A DNA stretch of 33,610 nt from a virus. The stretch's first letter is position 1, and each line of letters starts with the position of its first letter. Location of the stretch: IMG/VR virus record IMGVR_UViG_3300043119_000756, positions 1 to 33,610 of that record. The stretch is one strand, 5' to 3'. The notes under the pieces were generated by a model. The model ran no database searches and was not told where the DNA came from. It saw only the letters and a program-made list of their open reading frames with translations. The position numbers and the translations under genes are program-made. Shown piece after piece: positions 1 to 33,610 of the stretch.

Positions 1-87
1 CACGGGGGCCATTCCGGGCCGCCAGACCGGCAGCCCAAGTGCAGCGCAGGCAGCGCGGTAGCGGGCCGCAAGCGTCGGGGCGCTCAT
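1..87 (-). CDS. Hypothetical protein, partial at the left edge
   Basis: The reading frame starts at ATG 87-85 and is open to the edge of the window (29 codons, MSAPTLAARYRAAC...). The ATG overlaps the TGA of the upstream gene (ATGA), like most gene joints here. No family is recognised and the C-terminus is outside the window. If the sequence is circular, reading on into position 33610 gives five more residues and then a stop, for a 34-residue product. Confidence 0.5.
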   Translation of the reverse strand, partial: MSAPTLAARYRAACAALGLPVWRPGMAPV

Positions 88-644
88 GCCTCACCCCGCA
101 GCGCCGCGATCAGGTACACCCGCACCTCCTCCGCGTCATCCTCGCCCGGCGTCAGGTACGCGCCCAAGGGGTACTCGGGCAGCGAGGCAGCGGCCTCGGC
201 GATGACGGCGCGCAGGCGGTCGCGCTCGGCCAGGGCGGCGTCGCGCTCGCCCACTACGCGCTCCACCGCCGCGAGCAGGTCGGGCAGGTCATCGACGGCG
301 AGGTGGTCGGCGATGACGGCCCCGGTTCCGTTGGGGTGGACGGCGACCGCGACCGACCCAGCGAAGCCGCGCCACGCGACGACGTCGGCCAGGGCGGCGT
401 CGCGCTCGGCTTCGGCCGCCTGGGCGCGGGCCTCCATCTTGTTGTAGTTGCTGACCCCGTAGAACGGAAGCAGCGGGGTCGCGTAGCCCACCGTTGCGTT
501 CGCCTGTCGCCACGCGTCAAGCACGGTCGCCTCCACGCCGCTGGTTGTTGAGCCTTTGACCACCGACCACCGCCACCGGCCGGGGCTCAGGTCGCTGTCA
601 TACCGGGGGTCGGGCGTGTAAGCCTCGATGGTGATCTGGATCAT
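84..644 (-). CDS. Hypothetical phage protein with coiled-coil segment
   Basis: This 186-residue protein is not recognised. The N-terminus (MIQITIEAYTPDPRYDSD) looks beta-rich. Residues around 70-90 and 130-150 are rich in Ala, Glu and Arg (EARAQAAEAERDAALA, ERDAALAERDRL) and are likely coiled coil. The ATG overlaps the TGA of the small membrane-protein gene upstream, and its own TGA overlaps the next ATG, so it sits inside the leftward operon that starts near 1788. An accessory early function is possible but not shown. Confidence 0.7.
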   Translation of the reverse strand: MIQITIEAYTPDPRYDSDLSPGRWRWSVVKGSTTSGVEATVLDAWRQANATVGYATPLLPFYGVSNYNKMEARAQAAEAERDAALADVVAWRGFAGSVAVAVHPNGTGAVIADHLAVDDLPDLLAAVERVVGERDAALAERDRLRAVIAEAAASLPEYPLGAYLTPGEDDAEEVRVYLIAALRGEA

Positions 645-8158: not shown

Positions 8159-8452
8159 ATGCCCCGCCCTCACGCCGCCGCCCTCCTCGCCCTCCTCGCT
8201 GCCGCCTGCTCGGCCATCGGCGACACCGCCGCCGACGACGGCACCACCACCGCCAGCGGCGCCGCCATCGAGGTGGTCGAGGTGGCCGCCGAGGTGGACG
8301 GAGTCGAGGTGCCGGGCGTCATCCTCAGCGCCCACGCCTGCGCGTACCCCTACAGCGCCGCCGGCCGGTGCGAGCCCGCCGCCTTCTTCAACGACCGCGG
8401 CACGGTGTACGTGGAGGCGAGCGGCTACTGGCGCCTCGTGGTGCTCCGGTGA
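8159..8452 (+). CDS. Phage-encoded lipoprotein (97 aa)
   Basis: The start at ATG 8159 has AAGGAG five bases upstream. The N-terminus (MPRPHAAALLALLAAACSAI) is a typical lipoprotein signal with lipobox LAAAC, so the mature protein would begin at Cys17 and be lipid-anchored. The rest is a short acidic linker and a small beta-rich domain (EVVEVAAEVDGVEVPGVILS, RGTVYVEASGYWRLVVLR) with two further Cys residues. It is transcribed early with a methyltransferase. Small phage lipoproteins of this kind often alter the host surface or block superinfection, but that role is inference here. Confidence 0.8.
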   Translation: MPRPHAAALLALLAAACSAIGDTAADDGTTTASGAAIEVVEVAAEVDGVEVPGVILSAHACAYPYSAAGRCEPAAFFNDRGTVYVEASGYWRLVVLR

Positions 8453-9513
8453 GCGCGCCGGGTGGGCCGCTGCGCTGTCTGGAGCTTTTCGCCGGGGCCG
8501 GGGGCGCTGCTCTTGGCCTGGCCTGGGCTGGCGTTGAGCACGTCGCCCTCATCGAGCGCGACCCGGCCGCCTGCGCCACGTTGCGGTCGGCCGGGCTTGG
8601 CCTGGTCATCGAGGGCGATGCCGAGGACGTGGCGGCCCGGATGAAGGACTGGAGCGCGGCCATAGAGCCCGCCGCGTGGGCCCGCGCTGGGGATGACCTG
8701 CTCGACTCGGAGATCGGGGGCGAGGACGATGACCCGGACGCTTGGCCCCTTGCGCGGGAGGCCCTGGCGTCGCGGCTGGTGGCCGAAGCGCAGCGGGTGG
8801 ACCTGCTCTGGTCATCCCCCCCGTGTCCGCTGCACAGCCGGGCCAACAGCCGGCGCCGCGCCGAGGCCTTCGACGGCTGGCCCACCACCCTGGCGTGGGT
8901 CGATGCGCTGGGCCCGGAGTGGGTCGCGGTCGAGAACGTGCAGGCGGCGCTTGATGTGGCTCGGGACGTGTGGACCGCGGCCCTCACAAGGCGCGGGTAT
9001 TCCGTGGTGTCCGCCATTCTCGACGCCGCTGACTACGGCGTGCCCCAATGGCGCCGCCGGGTAGTACTGCTCGCCCACCGCGGCGGGCCGGTGTTCCTCC
9101 CCGAGCCGACGCATGGCTTCTGCCGCGCGCCGCACCGGACGCTCGCCGAGGCCGTGCCGCTTCTGCTCGCCGAGGATGACCCTCACCTGCGCTACACCGA
9201 GGGGCGCGCGGCCTCGGAGCGGTGGAGGCTCGGGGTGCCCGCCCCGACCGTGATGACGACGGAGGTGAAGGGGACGCGGGCTTCGGCGGCCTCGGGGTGG
9301 ACCTTCCACGGCGGGCCCGACCGGGCGAGCGACGCCGCTTATCTGGCGGTGGGGCGGCGGCGCCTGACCTGGCAGGAGTGCGCGGCGCTCCAAGGCTTCC
9401 CCGAGCACCACCCCTGGCATGGGACCGCCGAGGAGCGGTATCGGCAGGTCGGGAACGCGGTGCCGCCGCAGTTAGCCGAGGCCATCGGGCGCGCCCTGGT
9501 GAGCGCAGCATGA
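8449..9513 (+). CDS. dcm: DNA (cytosine-5-)-methyltransferase
   Basis: The 354-residue product from GTG 8449 (GTGA overlap with the lipoprotein stop) shows the ordered C5-methyltransferase motifs: SAM-binding LELFAGAGGAALGL (11-24), catalytic SSPPCPLHS with Cys126, ENV (162-164), PQWRRRVVLLAH (199-210), and the C-terminal LQGFPEH (314-320) and QVGNAVPP (333-340). It transfers methyl groups to cytosine in a specific sequence, probably protecting phage DNA from host restriction. An acidic insert (GEDDDPDAWP, around 91-100) separates motifs I and IV. No restriction endonuclease is adjacent. The target sequence cannot be told from the protein. Confidence 0.93.
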   Translation: MSAPGGPLRCLELFAGAGGAALGLAWAGVEHVALIERDPAACATLRSAGLGLVIEGDAEDVAARMKDWSAAIEPAAWARAGDDLLDSEIGGEDDDPDAWPLAREALASRLVAEAQRVDLLWSSPPCPLHSRANSRRRAEAFDGWPTTLAWVDALGPEWVAVENVQAALDVARDVWTAALTRRGYSVVSAILDAADYGVPQWRRRVVLLAHRGGPVFLPEPTHGFCRAPHRTLAEAVPLLLAEDDPHLRYTEGRAASERWRLGVPAPTVMTTEVKGTRASAASGWTFHGGPDRASDAAYLAVGRRRLTWQECAALQGFPEHHPWHGTAEERYRQVGNAVPPQLAEAIGRALVSAA

Positions 9514-12515: not shown

Positions 12516-12733
12516 GGCCCGAGGCCTGGGGCCGGTGGCTGGCCGCCTGCCCTTGCGAGCGGTGCTGTGGCGCGCCGCATGACCCGCCCCCGACCGTGAG
12601 GCGGCGGACGCCTGGGCGGCGGCTGAGGCGCAGCGGGCGCCGCTGTGGCGGCTATGACGGGTGGCGGCGCGGGAAGCTGATCGGCGGGCGGTGGGCGCCT
12701 GTGCCGATGACGTGTGGAGTCGAGGCCTTCTGA
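12512..12733 (+). CDS. Cys-rich basic protein (73 aa)
   Basis: The GTG start at 12512 overlaps the preceding stop (GTGA). The product has a Cys cluster near the N-terminus (ACPCERCCGAP, residues 12-22) and single Cys residues near 45 and 68, within a strongly basic sequence (TVRRRTPGRRLRRSGRRCGG). It could bind zinc and nucleic acid. No family is recognised. Confidence 0.5.
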   Translation: MRPEAWGRWLAACPCERCCGAPHDPPPTVRRRTPGRRLRRSGRRCGGYDGWRRGKLIGGRWAPVPMTCGVEAF

Positions 12734-12750
12734 GGGCTGGGGAGAGGACC

Positions 12751-13416
12751 ATGATCGAGCAGAGCAACACCATCGGGGCCCTGGCGGGCGCGCTCGCAGC
12801 GGCGGCCCCTGGGCTGCGCGAGGCCCGCAAGGACCGCGGGAACAGCCACCTCAAAAGCAAGTACGCCACCCTCGAAGCCATCCTCGAAGCGGTGCGCGAG
12901 CCCCTCGCCTTGCAGGGGATCGCCATCACGCAGGGGGTGAGCGCGGACGGCGGGCGCGTCACCGTCACCACGCAGCTCAGCCACCTGTCCGGGGAGTGGA
13001 TGCGGACCGCGCTGACGCTGCCAATCCCCGACAACAAGGCGCTGACGGCGGTCCAGGCGATGGGCAGCACCATCACCTATGGCCGGCGCTACACGCTGAG
13101 CGCGCTGTGCGGCCTCGGAGCCGAGGAGCGGGACGAAGACGACGGGGAAGCGGAGCGCGCGCCGCCTCGCCGCGGCCGGGATGAGCTTCCGCCAGAGCGC
13201 GAGGAGCGGCAGGCCGGGCACCACGCGAGCTGGGCGGCGGCGCAGAAGGGGACGATGGCGCGCCTTCGGGACATCGGCATGACCTATGAGCAGGCCAACG
13301 CGTGGCTGAGCGACCACGGACGCCCCCGCCTGTCAGGCATGGACCCCGAGACGCGCGAGAAGGCGCTGGCCTACTTCGGGCGCGACCGGAGCGACGCGCC
13401 GCCCGCCGCCCGGTGA
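12751..13416 (+). CDS. erf: ERF-family single-strand annealing recombinase
   Basis: From ATG 12751 (after GGGGAGAGG) the product is 221 residues. It carries the ERF signature: SKYATLEAILEAVREPLALQ (36-55), then GIAITQ, and GSTITYGRRYTLSALCGL (105-122). Proteins of this family anneal complementary single strands and help circularise or recombine phage DNA. The C-terminal part is a charged linker and a small helical domain (GTMARLRDIGMTYEQANAWL). No exonuclease partner is visible. It is in the same operon as several small genes and probably works with the RusA-like resolvase. Confidence 0.9.
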   Translation: MIEQSNTIGALAGALAAAAPGLREARKDRGNSHLKSKYATLEAILEAVREPLALQGIAITQGVSADGGRVTVTTQLSHLSGEWMRTALTLPIPDNKALTAVQAMGSTITYGRRYTLSALCGLGAEERDEDDGEAERAPPRRGRDELPPEREERQAGHHASWAAAQKGTMARLRDIGMTYEQANAWLSDHGRPRLSGMDPETREKALAYFGRDRSDAPPAAR

Positions 13417-32200: not shown

Positions 32201-32431
32201 TCAGCGCGTGGCCCTGCCCCAAAGCACCCCGCCGCGCCACGCCAGCCACACGGCAGCGGAGGCGACGCCCCGGCCGGTCACCAGCATCGCGAGCAGAAGC
32301 GCCGAGACAGCAGCGTGAAGCCGCCAGTCTGCGGCGCTTTCGGCTGTCTCGGCGTTGTCGGCCCGGAGCGACGACGCCCGCACGTCGAGGCCGAGGATCG
32401 TGGTCAACCGCTCGCGCTCCGCATCGTGCAT
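32201..32431 (-). CDS. Membrane protein at the end of the leftward cluster (76 aa)
   Basis: The N-terminal half is charged (MHDAERERLTTILGLDVRAS, SLRADNAETAESAADWR). The C-terminal half has a hydrophobic segment (LHAAVSALLLAMLVTG) and a second, shorter one (VASAAVWLAWRGGVLW), suggesting one or two spans. It converges with the late operon. A lysis or membrane-accessory role is possible by topology only. Confidence 0.5.
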   Translation of the reverse strand: MHDAERERLTTILGLDVRASSLRADNAETAESAADWRLHAAVSALLLAMLVTGRGVASAAVWLAWRGGVLWGRATR

Positions 32432-32491
32432 CTGCCCCCCACGGCGCCGCCGGCTCCGGTGGAGCGCGTAGAGCGGAGCCTGTGGGGCATC

Positions 32492-32866
32492 CTACCCCGG
32501 TAGGGTCCGGGGCGGGTTTCGGGCGGTGTCAGCCTTGGCGTCGCTCAGCATCCGGGCGAGCAGGCCGCGCATGTAGACGATGAGCCCCGGCGTGTCCATG
32601 TCGTCGCCGGTCACGTCAAGCAAGCCGCCCCCGAGCAGGCGCATGGCGTCAGGGTCCGGCGGCAGCACCTGTTCCAGCGGGCCGGTCGGCAGCGTCATGA
32701 TCCACATGCTGGCCAGCGATGTCCGGTCGGACTGGAGTTGGGTCACCTGGGAGGCCAGCGCGTCAAGCTCGGCCTGCGCTGCGCTGCGCTCGGCTTGAAG
32801 GTACGCCACAAGCTCTTTCAGGCCGTTGTTCTCGGCCTCCAGTCGTTCGATCCGTTCGTCACCCAT
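32492..32866 (-). CDS. Coiled-coil hypothetical protein (124 aa)
   Basis: The preferred start is ATG 32866, which overlaps the stop of the 29-residue ORF (TGATG) and lies eight bases after GAGGGA; a GTG at 32869 in the same frame is also possible. The first 45 residues are a coiled coil (RIERLEAENNGLKELVAYLQ, AERSAAQAELDALASQVTQL). The C-terminal peptide ADTARNPPRTLPG is encoded by one copy of a 31-bp direct repeat and reappears at the start of the neighbouring micro-ORF. It is unrecognised. Confidence 0.6.
   Translation of the reverse strand: MGDERIERLEAENNGLKELVAYLQAERSAAQAELDALASQVTQLQSDRTSLASMWIMTLPTGPLEQVLPPDPDAMRLLGGGLLDVTGDDMDTPGLIVYMRGLLARMLSDAKADTARNPPRTLPG
32504..32534. repeat. 31-bp direct repeat, copy 1
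   Basis: This stretch is identical, base for base, to 32920-32950, 416 bases away. Here it encodes the C-terminal ADTARNPPRT of the 124-residue protein on the minus strand. Confidence 0.9.
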
Positions 32867-32907
32867 CACGTCACTCCCTCGCGCCCCTCGGCGCCGTCGT
32901 CGTTGTT
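32864..32907. repeat. 44-bp ribosome-binding and start cassette repeat, copy A
   Basis: Aligned with 33105-33145 it differs by three base changes and one 3-bp deletion. On the minus strand both copies encode the end NND(D)G-EGREGVT of an upstream gene, the ribosome binding site inside that end, and the overlapping TGATG joint. Confidence 0.85.
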
Positions 32908-32955
32908 GCCGCCCGGAGAGGTCCGGGGCGGGTTTCGGGCGGTGTCAGCCCGCAT
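32866..32955 (-). CDS. 29-residue mosaic micro-ORF
   Basis: The frame runs from ATG 32955-32953, overlapping the TGA of the Cys-rich gene (TGATG), to TGA 32868-32866, overlapping the next ATG. The product begins MRADTARNPPRTSPGG and ends NNDDGAEGREGVT. Its first part matches the C-terminus of the gene downstream, and its last part matches the C-terminus of the gene at 33107-33478. Both matches come from DNA repeats. It may be a remnant of recombination kept as a translational-coupling spacer. Confidence 0.4.
   Translation of the reverse strand: MRADTARNPPRTSPGGNNDDGAEGREGVT
32920..32950. repeat. 31-bp direct repeat, copy 2
   Basis: This stretch is identical to 32504-32534. It encodes the ADTARNPPRT segment near the start of the 29-residue ORF on the minus strand. 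Confidence 0.9.
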
Positions 32956-33107
32956 CAGCAGCTTTCATCGCACGGAGCCGCCCCGCACGTCTCGCACACC
33001 ACCCCTGACCAGTGGCACCCCGACTGCGCGGCCCCATCCACCGTGGGCTCGCCGCAGTCCTCGCACTCGCCGTCAGCCTTGCCCAGATACCATCCATCGG
33101 TACACAT
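32955..33107 (-). CDS. Cys-rich, zinc-ribbon-like mini-protein (50 aa)
   Basis: ATG 33107-33105 overlaps the previous TGA (TGATG) and the frame ends at TGA 32957-32955. The product begins MCTDGWYLGKADGECEDCGE and contains a second CxxC (VCETCGAAPCDESC). The pair CEDCG and CETCG, 24 residues apart, is the pattern of a four-Cys zinc ribbon; there are eight Cys in all. Small zinc proteins of phages often bind nucleic acids or host proteins. A ribosome binding site (GAGGGGG) lies about nine bases upstream. Confidence 0.65.
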   Translation of the reverse strand: MCTDGWYLGKADGECEDCGEPTVDGAAQSGCHWSGVVCETCGAAPCDESC

Positions 33108-33145
33108 CACGTCACCCCCTCGCGCCCCTCGACGCCATCGTTGTT
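33105..33145. repeat. 41-bp ribosome-binding and start cassette repeat, copy B
   Basis: This is the second copy of the 32864-32907 element. It spans the end of the 123-residue gene and the start of the Cys-rich gene on the minus strand. Confidence 0.85.
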
Positions 33146-33478
33146 GTCCGTCTCCGGCCGCCGGCCAGCCGCTACCTCATCGGCGACGTGGACCATCCAC
33201 GGGTCGCCACCCTGCTCGGCCCACACGCGCAGGTCGGCGGCGATGAAGGCGCGCTCGGCAGCCCGGCCGCGCGCCTCGTCGGTGGCAGCCGCCGCGCGCC
33301 GCATCAACCGGGTGCGGCACCGCACCGCCTCGCCAGGGGCGATTACGGCAGTCGGGCGCCACCGCCCACACCAGTCCCAGGCCGCCTCCCAGGCCGCCAG
33401 CGCGAGCAGATGCGCCCGCAGCCGCGCCTCATCCGACGTGCGCCGCTCCGTGCGGACGGATCGCAGGCGGCGGGTCAT
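33107..33478 (-). CDS. Hypothetical protein (123 aa)
   Basis: The ATG at 33478 overlaps the stop of the partial gene upstream (ATGA). The product is Arg/Ala-rich and helical (RLRAHLLALAAWEAAWDWCG, RRAAAATDEARGRAAERAFI) with a short segment DLRVWAEQGGDPWMVHVADE. It ends DNNDGVEGREGVT, shared with the 29-residue ORF. No family is recognised. Confidence 0.6.
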   Translation of the reverse strand: MTRRLRSVRTERRTSDEARLRAHLLALAAWEAAWDWCGRWRPTAVIAPGEAVRCRTRLMRRAAAATDEARGRAAERAFIAADLRVWAEQGGDPWMVHVADEVAAGRRPETDNNDGVEGREGVT

Positions 33479-33610
33479 TGACCACCCCGCTGCTCAACGT
33501 AGAGGCGCAGTCGATCGAGGTTCTCCACAGCAGACTCAAGGACAGCCACGATCGCGGCTCCCTCGGTTCTCTCCGTGAGGATCGGTTCGCGATCAGGCGG
33601 TCCATACGAT
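33475..33610 (-). CDS. Hypothetical protein, partial at the right edge
   Basis: The frame is open from the edge of the window to TGA 33477-33475 and ends AVLESAVENLDRLRLYVEQR GGQ, a likely amphipathic helix. Its start is outside the window, or may be GTG 33549-33547 (product MAVLESAVENLD...) after a GAGGGA sequence. Its stop overlaps the next ATG (ATGA). No family is recognised. Confidence 0.45.
   Translation of the reverse strand, partial: SYGPPDREPILTERTEGAAIVAVLESAVENLDRLRLYVEQRGGQ

Follow-up and report, generated by a model that had tools for sequence, protein, structure and literature searches.

The nearest precedent for the locus analysed here is gene 68 of Island3. The passages of PMC3029335 on this gene describe that its tail repeats the tail of the upstream gene over about 50 bp, that the gene is absent from Brujita, and that recombination between the repeats was inferred. 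Other related elements are the T4-type PeSL promoter/stem-loop cassettes (Arbiol 2010 and Comeau 2014, as cited in PMC4503421) and the Start-Associated Sequences (SAS) of Cluster K mycobacteriophages. The sections of PMC3203893 on SAS present a 13-bp sequence, GGGATAGGAGCCC, with 11–19 copies per genome, containing a Shine-Dalgarno core just upstream of the starts of unrelated genes and in some cases accompanied by an upstream inverted repeat.

The present locus is a hypervariable slot at the 3' end of a leftward gene set. It is bounded by two conserved genes, A and E, and holds 0–4 mostly unrelated genes over eight alleles. Its borders are a start-side element (D1) and a stop-side element (D2). 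From the sequence comparisons below we regard it as a well-resolved new case of the known boundary-sequence mosaicism; no description of the locus was found in the open-access literature. As in the Island3/Brujita pair, to the extent that the passages cited describe it, a short gene-tail repeat surrounds an inserted small gene that a relative is without. In contrast to that pair, the slot repeats both a start-side and a stop-side element, the former holding a ribosome-binding site and a start codon, and does so over eight alleles with their 0–4 genes. The likeness to T4-type PeSL, as portrayed in the citing article, consists in short intergenic elements at gene-shuffling sites, with possible hairpins in D2 and in the spacer between A and D1. 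Strong D1 and D2 matches, however, are located in the slot only, as opposed to the genome-wide spread of PeSL. A consensus scan for an early promoter and a terminator, as in PeSL, gave 0 sigma-70 promoters and 0 terminators; the TAGGAT or TAGACT of D2 could be a -10 box. Like SAS as presented in the sections cited, D1 is a conserved Shine-Dalgarno-bearing sequence directly before the starts of unrelated genes, but its sequence is different and slot-specific. With up to 2 mismatches allowed, GGGATAGGAGCCC had no match in the slot elements, and the 13 pieces searched together contained 3 scattered ones.

The window, that is the whole stretch of DNA analysed, is the entire 33,610-base IMG/VR record IMGVR_UViG_3300043119_000756. 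Its terminase shares 23–26% identity over 65–90% of the length with the 20 best of 107 matching phage records, and the hosts of these 20 are Mannheimia, Bacillus, Haemophilus, Pseudomonas and Paenibacillus only. A DNA search among annotated phages returned no match, and gene A alone as query of viral contigs found no relative. Capsid, terminase, D1/D2 patterns and alignments of E and A together led to seven other records (G001, G002, G003, G004, L079, L080 and L081). G001 matches the window at 79–92% identity over most of its length, covering 26,816 of 33,610 bases. G001 and G002 are identical across 1321 bases of the locus, and G003 contains the locus twice, with one copy per end and the copies differing (G003L and G003R). 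Hence, the allele set (n = 8) comprises the window and six other IMG/VR records, one of them with two alleles, while the seventh record duplicates another. The relevant features of the window are as follows.

32201–32431, minus strand: gene E, conserved downstream border gene; protein 95–96% identical in G001, G002 and G004
32432–32534, minus strand: D2 and the GC-rich leader of E (CTGACACCGCCCGAAAC, GC hairpin, TAGGAT)
32492–32866, minus strand: cargo gene C (124 aa), whose final codons and TAG stop fall within D2
32856–32906, minus strand: D1', second start-side element, with the ribosome-binding site and start of C
32866–32955, minus strand: 29-residue ORF, a D2'/D1' fusion that no other allele has
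32912–32950, minus strand: D2', truncated stop-side element, a repeat of D2
32955–33107, minus strand: cargo gene B, 50-aa zinc-ribbon-like protein (phrog_13157, E 1.3e-12)
33097–33147, minus strand: D1, boundary element on the start side, with the ribosome-binding site GAGGGGG, a small GC hairpin and, in GTGATG, the start of B
33107–33478, minus strand: gene A, conserved upstream border gene with homologs in the relatives
12661–13416, plus strand: ERF-family single-strand annealing protein, candidate recombinase (PF04404, E 1.3e-19)

An earlier note on this DNA had reported a 41–44 bp element in two copies. The duplication is real: D1 and D1' align over 51 nt without indel at 86% identity, and over the 43 nt ending at the start codon they are 90.7% identical. 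The apparent length difference of 44 versus 41 bp is merely a matter of where the edges were drawn. Each copy is identical at 31 of 32 nt to the element of G004. The separate 31-bp repeat was likewise confirmed. The exact 31-mer starts only at 32504 and 32920 in the window, and 1000 dinucleotide shuffles of 32400–33610 gave no exact repeat longer than 16. It forms part of the alignment of D2 (32496–32534) with D2' (32912–32950), which shows 92% identity over 39 nt.

D2 consists of CTG(A/T)CACCGC..GAAA, a GC-rich stretch and then TAGGAT or TAGACT; cargo genes terminate at varying points within or ahead of it. Across D2 and E, the window is about 92% identical to G001 and G004. A search with the D2 pattern found 4 viral contigs, every one a relative. 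The alleles fall into two clades with different forms of D2, and D2 of the first form also occurs inside G003R. In the other clade the place of D1 is taken by a joint of about 42 nt, J. The likeness between D1 and J is moderate: in 3 of 20 pairs none of 300 shuffles reached the observed score, while in the other pairs 4–296 shuffles did.

The contents of the slot differ between the alleles.

Window: B and C
G001/G002: a single gene of 108 aa
G004: a single gene of 75 aa
G003R: a gene of 100 aa, a short frame resembling a zinc finger, and genes of 108 and 127 aa
G003L: one 90-aa gene (Y)
L079: zinc-finger gene, 90-aa gene and 111-aa gene
L080: zinc-finger gene only
L081: zinc-finger gene, 138-aa gene and 133-aa gene

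The zinc-finger gene of L079, L080 and L081 was counted as border, so that L080 is scored as empty. The same cargo gene was found in different alleles in two cases only, namely the 127-aa gene of G003R and the 133-aa gene of L081 (89%), and Y and the 90-aa gene of L079 (97%). Other matches between cargo genes are gene tails within D2, or short. B is unrelated to C, neither is related to the remaining cargo, and the slot gene of G001 is unrelated to those of the window despite the similarity of the two genomes. Relatives elsewhere exist for three cargo genes: B, which occurs in 86 phage records and in 5 viral contigs outside the present phage group, Y (phrog_21631) and the 138-aa gene (phrog_22148). 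Gene C, whose N-terminus is likely a coiled coil according to prediction, had no homolog among 50,697 phage records, nor in G001/G002, and the 127-aa gene of G003R had no match among the same 50,697 records.

The positions at which homology begins and ends were determined for all 28 pairs of the 8 alleles, which are not independent of each other. In 15 of 15 pairs that share D2 but not the preceding gene, the match begins 0–11 nt upstream of the D2 core. In one further pair (G003R and L081), homology continues through the 127-aa/133-aa gene into the joint, and at E 1e-3 the other 12 pairs, all between clades, showed no match in D2. For the start side, the matching stretch that contains D1 stops at most 10 nt from the ATG of the first cargo gene in each of the six pairs formed by the window, G001, G004 and G003R. 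L080 and L081 have a common sequence up to D2, where L081 holds 822 nt more, corresponding to two genes. The match between Y in G003L and its copy in L079 extends from the ATG to the first base after the stop, and both flanks differ: Y is followed by D2, the copy by J and another gene. J lies upstream of this cargo in G003L and downstream of the same cargo in L079. Short border sequences are thus shared around non-homologous genes, and genes are present or absent at the same border, which are two marks of boundary-sequence mosaicism. The check that the earlier note had proposed, whether gene gain and loss in relatives falls exactly between the cassettes, therefore came out in its favor (15/15 D2 pairs; empty L080 versus two genes in L081).

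The same note suggested that coupling cassettes are units of gene shuffling. Shuffling of the slot itself is borne out by the eight alleles; conservation of the TGATG coupling is not. In the window TGATG is found at three joints, between the A stop and the ATG of B, the B stop and the ATG of the 29-residue ORF, and the stop of this ORF and the ATG of C. The leftward frames are therefore linked as had been described, but there are four of them including the 29-residue ORF, rather than three. In G001, G004 and G003R (3/5 type-1 entries), the stop of gene A lies about 70 nt upstream and the TGA of D1 ends no gene. Stop-start coupling is therefore a trait of some alleles and not a conserved property of D1.

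In the window, the elements and genes are arranged in the order D1-B-D2'-D1'-C-D2. As previously noticed, the 29-residue ORF is built from the tails of its neighbors: it is identical at 12 of 13 positions to the C-terminal 13 residues of C and continues into a tail encoded by D1', which gene A also has. D2' breaks off within its hairpin, and its junction with D1' has no long shared word. It is identical to D2 of G001 at 37 of 37 nt, whereas it agrees with the window's own D2 at 34 of 37; the latter may have mutated since the joining. The simplest account of this order would be that two occupied slots from different phages were joined D2-to-D1, with the 29-residue ORF as the seam left behind. 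The idea that this ORF is a real gene was dropped, since it is absent from the relatives and is explained by the D2'/D1' fusion; it is probably a scar rather than a gene. A spurious small ORF that arises from fused border elements calls for caution in the annotation of small genes.

Directly observed are thus the slot, its changing content, breakpoints at the elements and duplicated elements. On this basis, it is quite probable that we are dealing with an accessory-gene slot in which exchange takes place at short shared borders, and that the window represents two joined slots. D1, or its counterpart J, would supply a ribosome-binding site and a start codon to any gene behind it, and D2 would supply stop codons and continue into the leader of E. 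Small genes of foreign origin would be gained and lost as units running nearly from start to stop, by recombination in or next to these shared short elements. We infer that the cargo is expressed from D1 and that exchange proceeds by short-homology annealing, plausibly via the ERF protein of the phage. The window phage also encodes RusA. Homologs of ERF are present in G001 and G003; the records G004 and G002, the latter partial at 26 kb, yielded none. As stated in the relevant part of PMC3945230, Rad52-like phage recombinases, including an Erf, recombine short, diverged sequences. Annealing at D1/J and D2 is plausible because of this ability and the presence of ERF and RusA. A further step, that D1/J and D2 constitute a portable expression frame used by ERF as exchange sites, is speculative and we consider it rather unlikely. 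If true, any small gene between D1/J and D2 would go in from start to stop, would be translated immediately and could be stacked in arrays, and the phages would possess a cassette system that lets them test accessory genes without an integrase.

It is debated whether unbroken single-gene exchange in phages reflects random joining plus selection or annealing at short shared sequences. For the slot, illegitimate recombination at random sites with selection for intact genes is possible, though less likely than not; D1 and D2 would then be kept for expressing the slot gene and E. Gene-precise breakpoints are indeed common elsewhere between the window and G001, for example at the methyltransferase gap 8457–9507. 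Genome-wide, 13 of 23 homology edges lie within 6 nt of ORF ends, with 3.5 expected from 2000 random draws, in an ORF list that includes spurious frames. No flanking repeats were noticed at these other gene-precise breakpoints, which were not searched one by one. Because breaks lie at ORF ends throughout the genome, D1 and D2 may be markers of the slot rather than causes of exchange. We therefore regard the cassettes as markers of an exchange slot and their causal role in exchange as a candidate only. Random joining is less easily reconciled with the duplication of D1 and D2 in one allele and the position of J on opposite sides of the same cargo in G003L and L079, since both findings show the elements to travel with the genes. 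A single set of related genomes here includes an empty site, sites with one and with two genes, a transfer running almost from start to stop, and borders that are duplicated, which makes the two views testable at defined positions.

The doubling of both elements in tandem within 0.7 kb would also result from a local tandem duplication (A end and C end) in one lineage, followed by decay and with no exchange between phages. This explanation is improbable and already largely refuted: B and C are related neither to each other nor to other cargo, D2' equals D2 of G001 yet differs from the neighboring D2 at 3 of 37 positions, and other alleles carry other genes. It seems similarly improbable that two slot alleles of a mixed population were joined during assembly, even though the record is a metagenomic contig and the differing alleles at the two ends of G003 suggest mixed populations. 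A repeat-mediated mis-join would keep a whole D1 or D2, whereas D2' is cut in its hairpin with no long shared word, and multi-gene arrays are also found in L079, L081 and G003R. Arrays of genes that have a site at either side are reminiscent of integrons, whose attC sites have the core GTTRRRY. This core is absent on both strands from the six elements inspected (D1, D1', D1 of G004, J and two D2 forms), and no integrase was seen among 16 window proteins searched in Pfam. A dedicated site-specific, integron-like system with D1 and D2 as recognition sites is consequently very improbable.

Exchange at the slot borders, the reading we prefer, may also have shaped gene A. Its homologs occur in G001/G002 (62%), G004 (70%), G003 (twice), L079, L080 and L081, and the five that were aligned besides the window end near ...RRWA. 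In the window, the C-terminal part of A is chimeric and reads through D1; about 46 extra C-terminal residues (33107–33250) are missing in four other aligned alleles. This part is probably left over from an earlier cargo gene, and the tail through D1 suggests an earlier event like the joining of the slots.

Between the A stop and D1, three relatives contain a predicted hairpin of about 10 pairs (GCGCCCGGCC...GGCTGGGCGC; L012 1739–1763, L016 676–701 and L022 1722–1746), and the window is without it. The spacer of these relatives folds somewhat better than shuffles (z -1.7 to -2.4), scores that weakly support the hairpin. A conserved RNA structure in the leader of E was considered and rejected: 7 consensus pairs have changes on both sides, but mostly between the two clades. 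Five single E leaders fold no better than shuffles (z -1.5 to +1.0). The 20-base D1 core gave 40 matches in bacterial genomes, and tblastn of E, B and C against these 40 loci found no match. Weak tblastn matches of gene A in two of them (L060, E 2.7e-4; L027, E 0.008) were taken as chance.

The outermost parts of the window (1–644 and 33475–33610) include the tail of a gene at 84–644; it matches, with 86% DNA identity over 77–249, the second gene upstream of A in G001. Because of this match, the ends of the record seem to represent an arbitrary cut in a circular map. In record 3300042453_004843 (L022 and L023), the two contig ends carry different alleles of the same slot region. This would reflect a true duplication or else the assembly of a mixed population around a genome that is circular or redundant.

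Far from the slot, the gene for a C5 cytosine methyltransferase (PF00145, window 8452–9513) is replaced in G001. The edges of the replacement lie 5–6 nt from the gene start and stop, and we interpret it as another gene-precise exchange. The likely GTG start of the methyltransferase gene adjoins the stop of the preceding gene.
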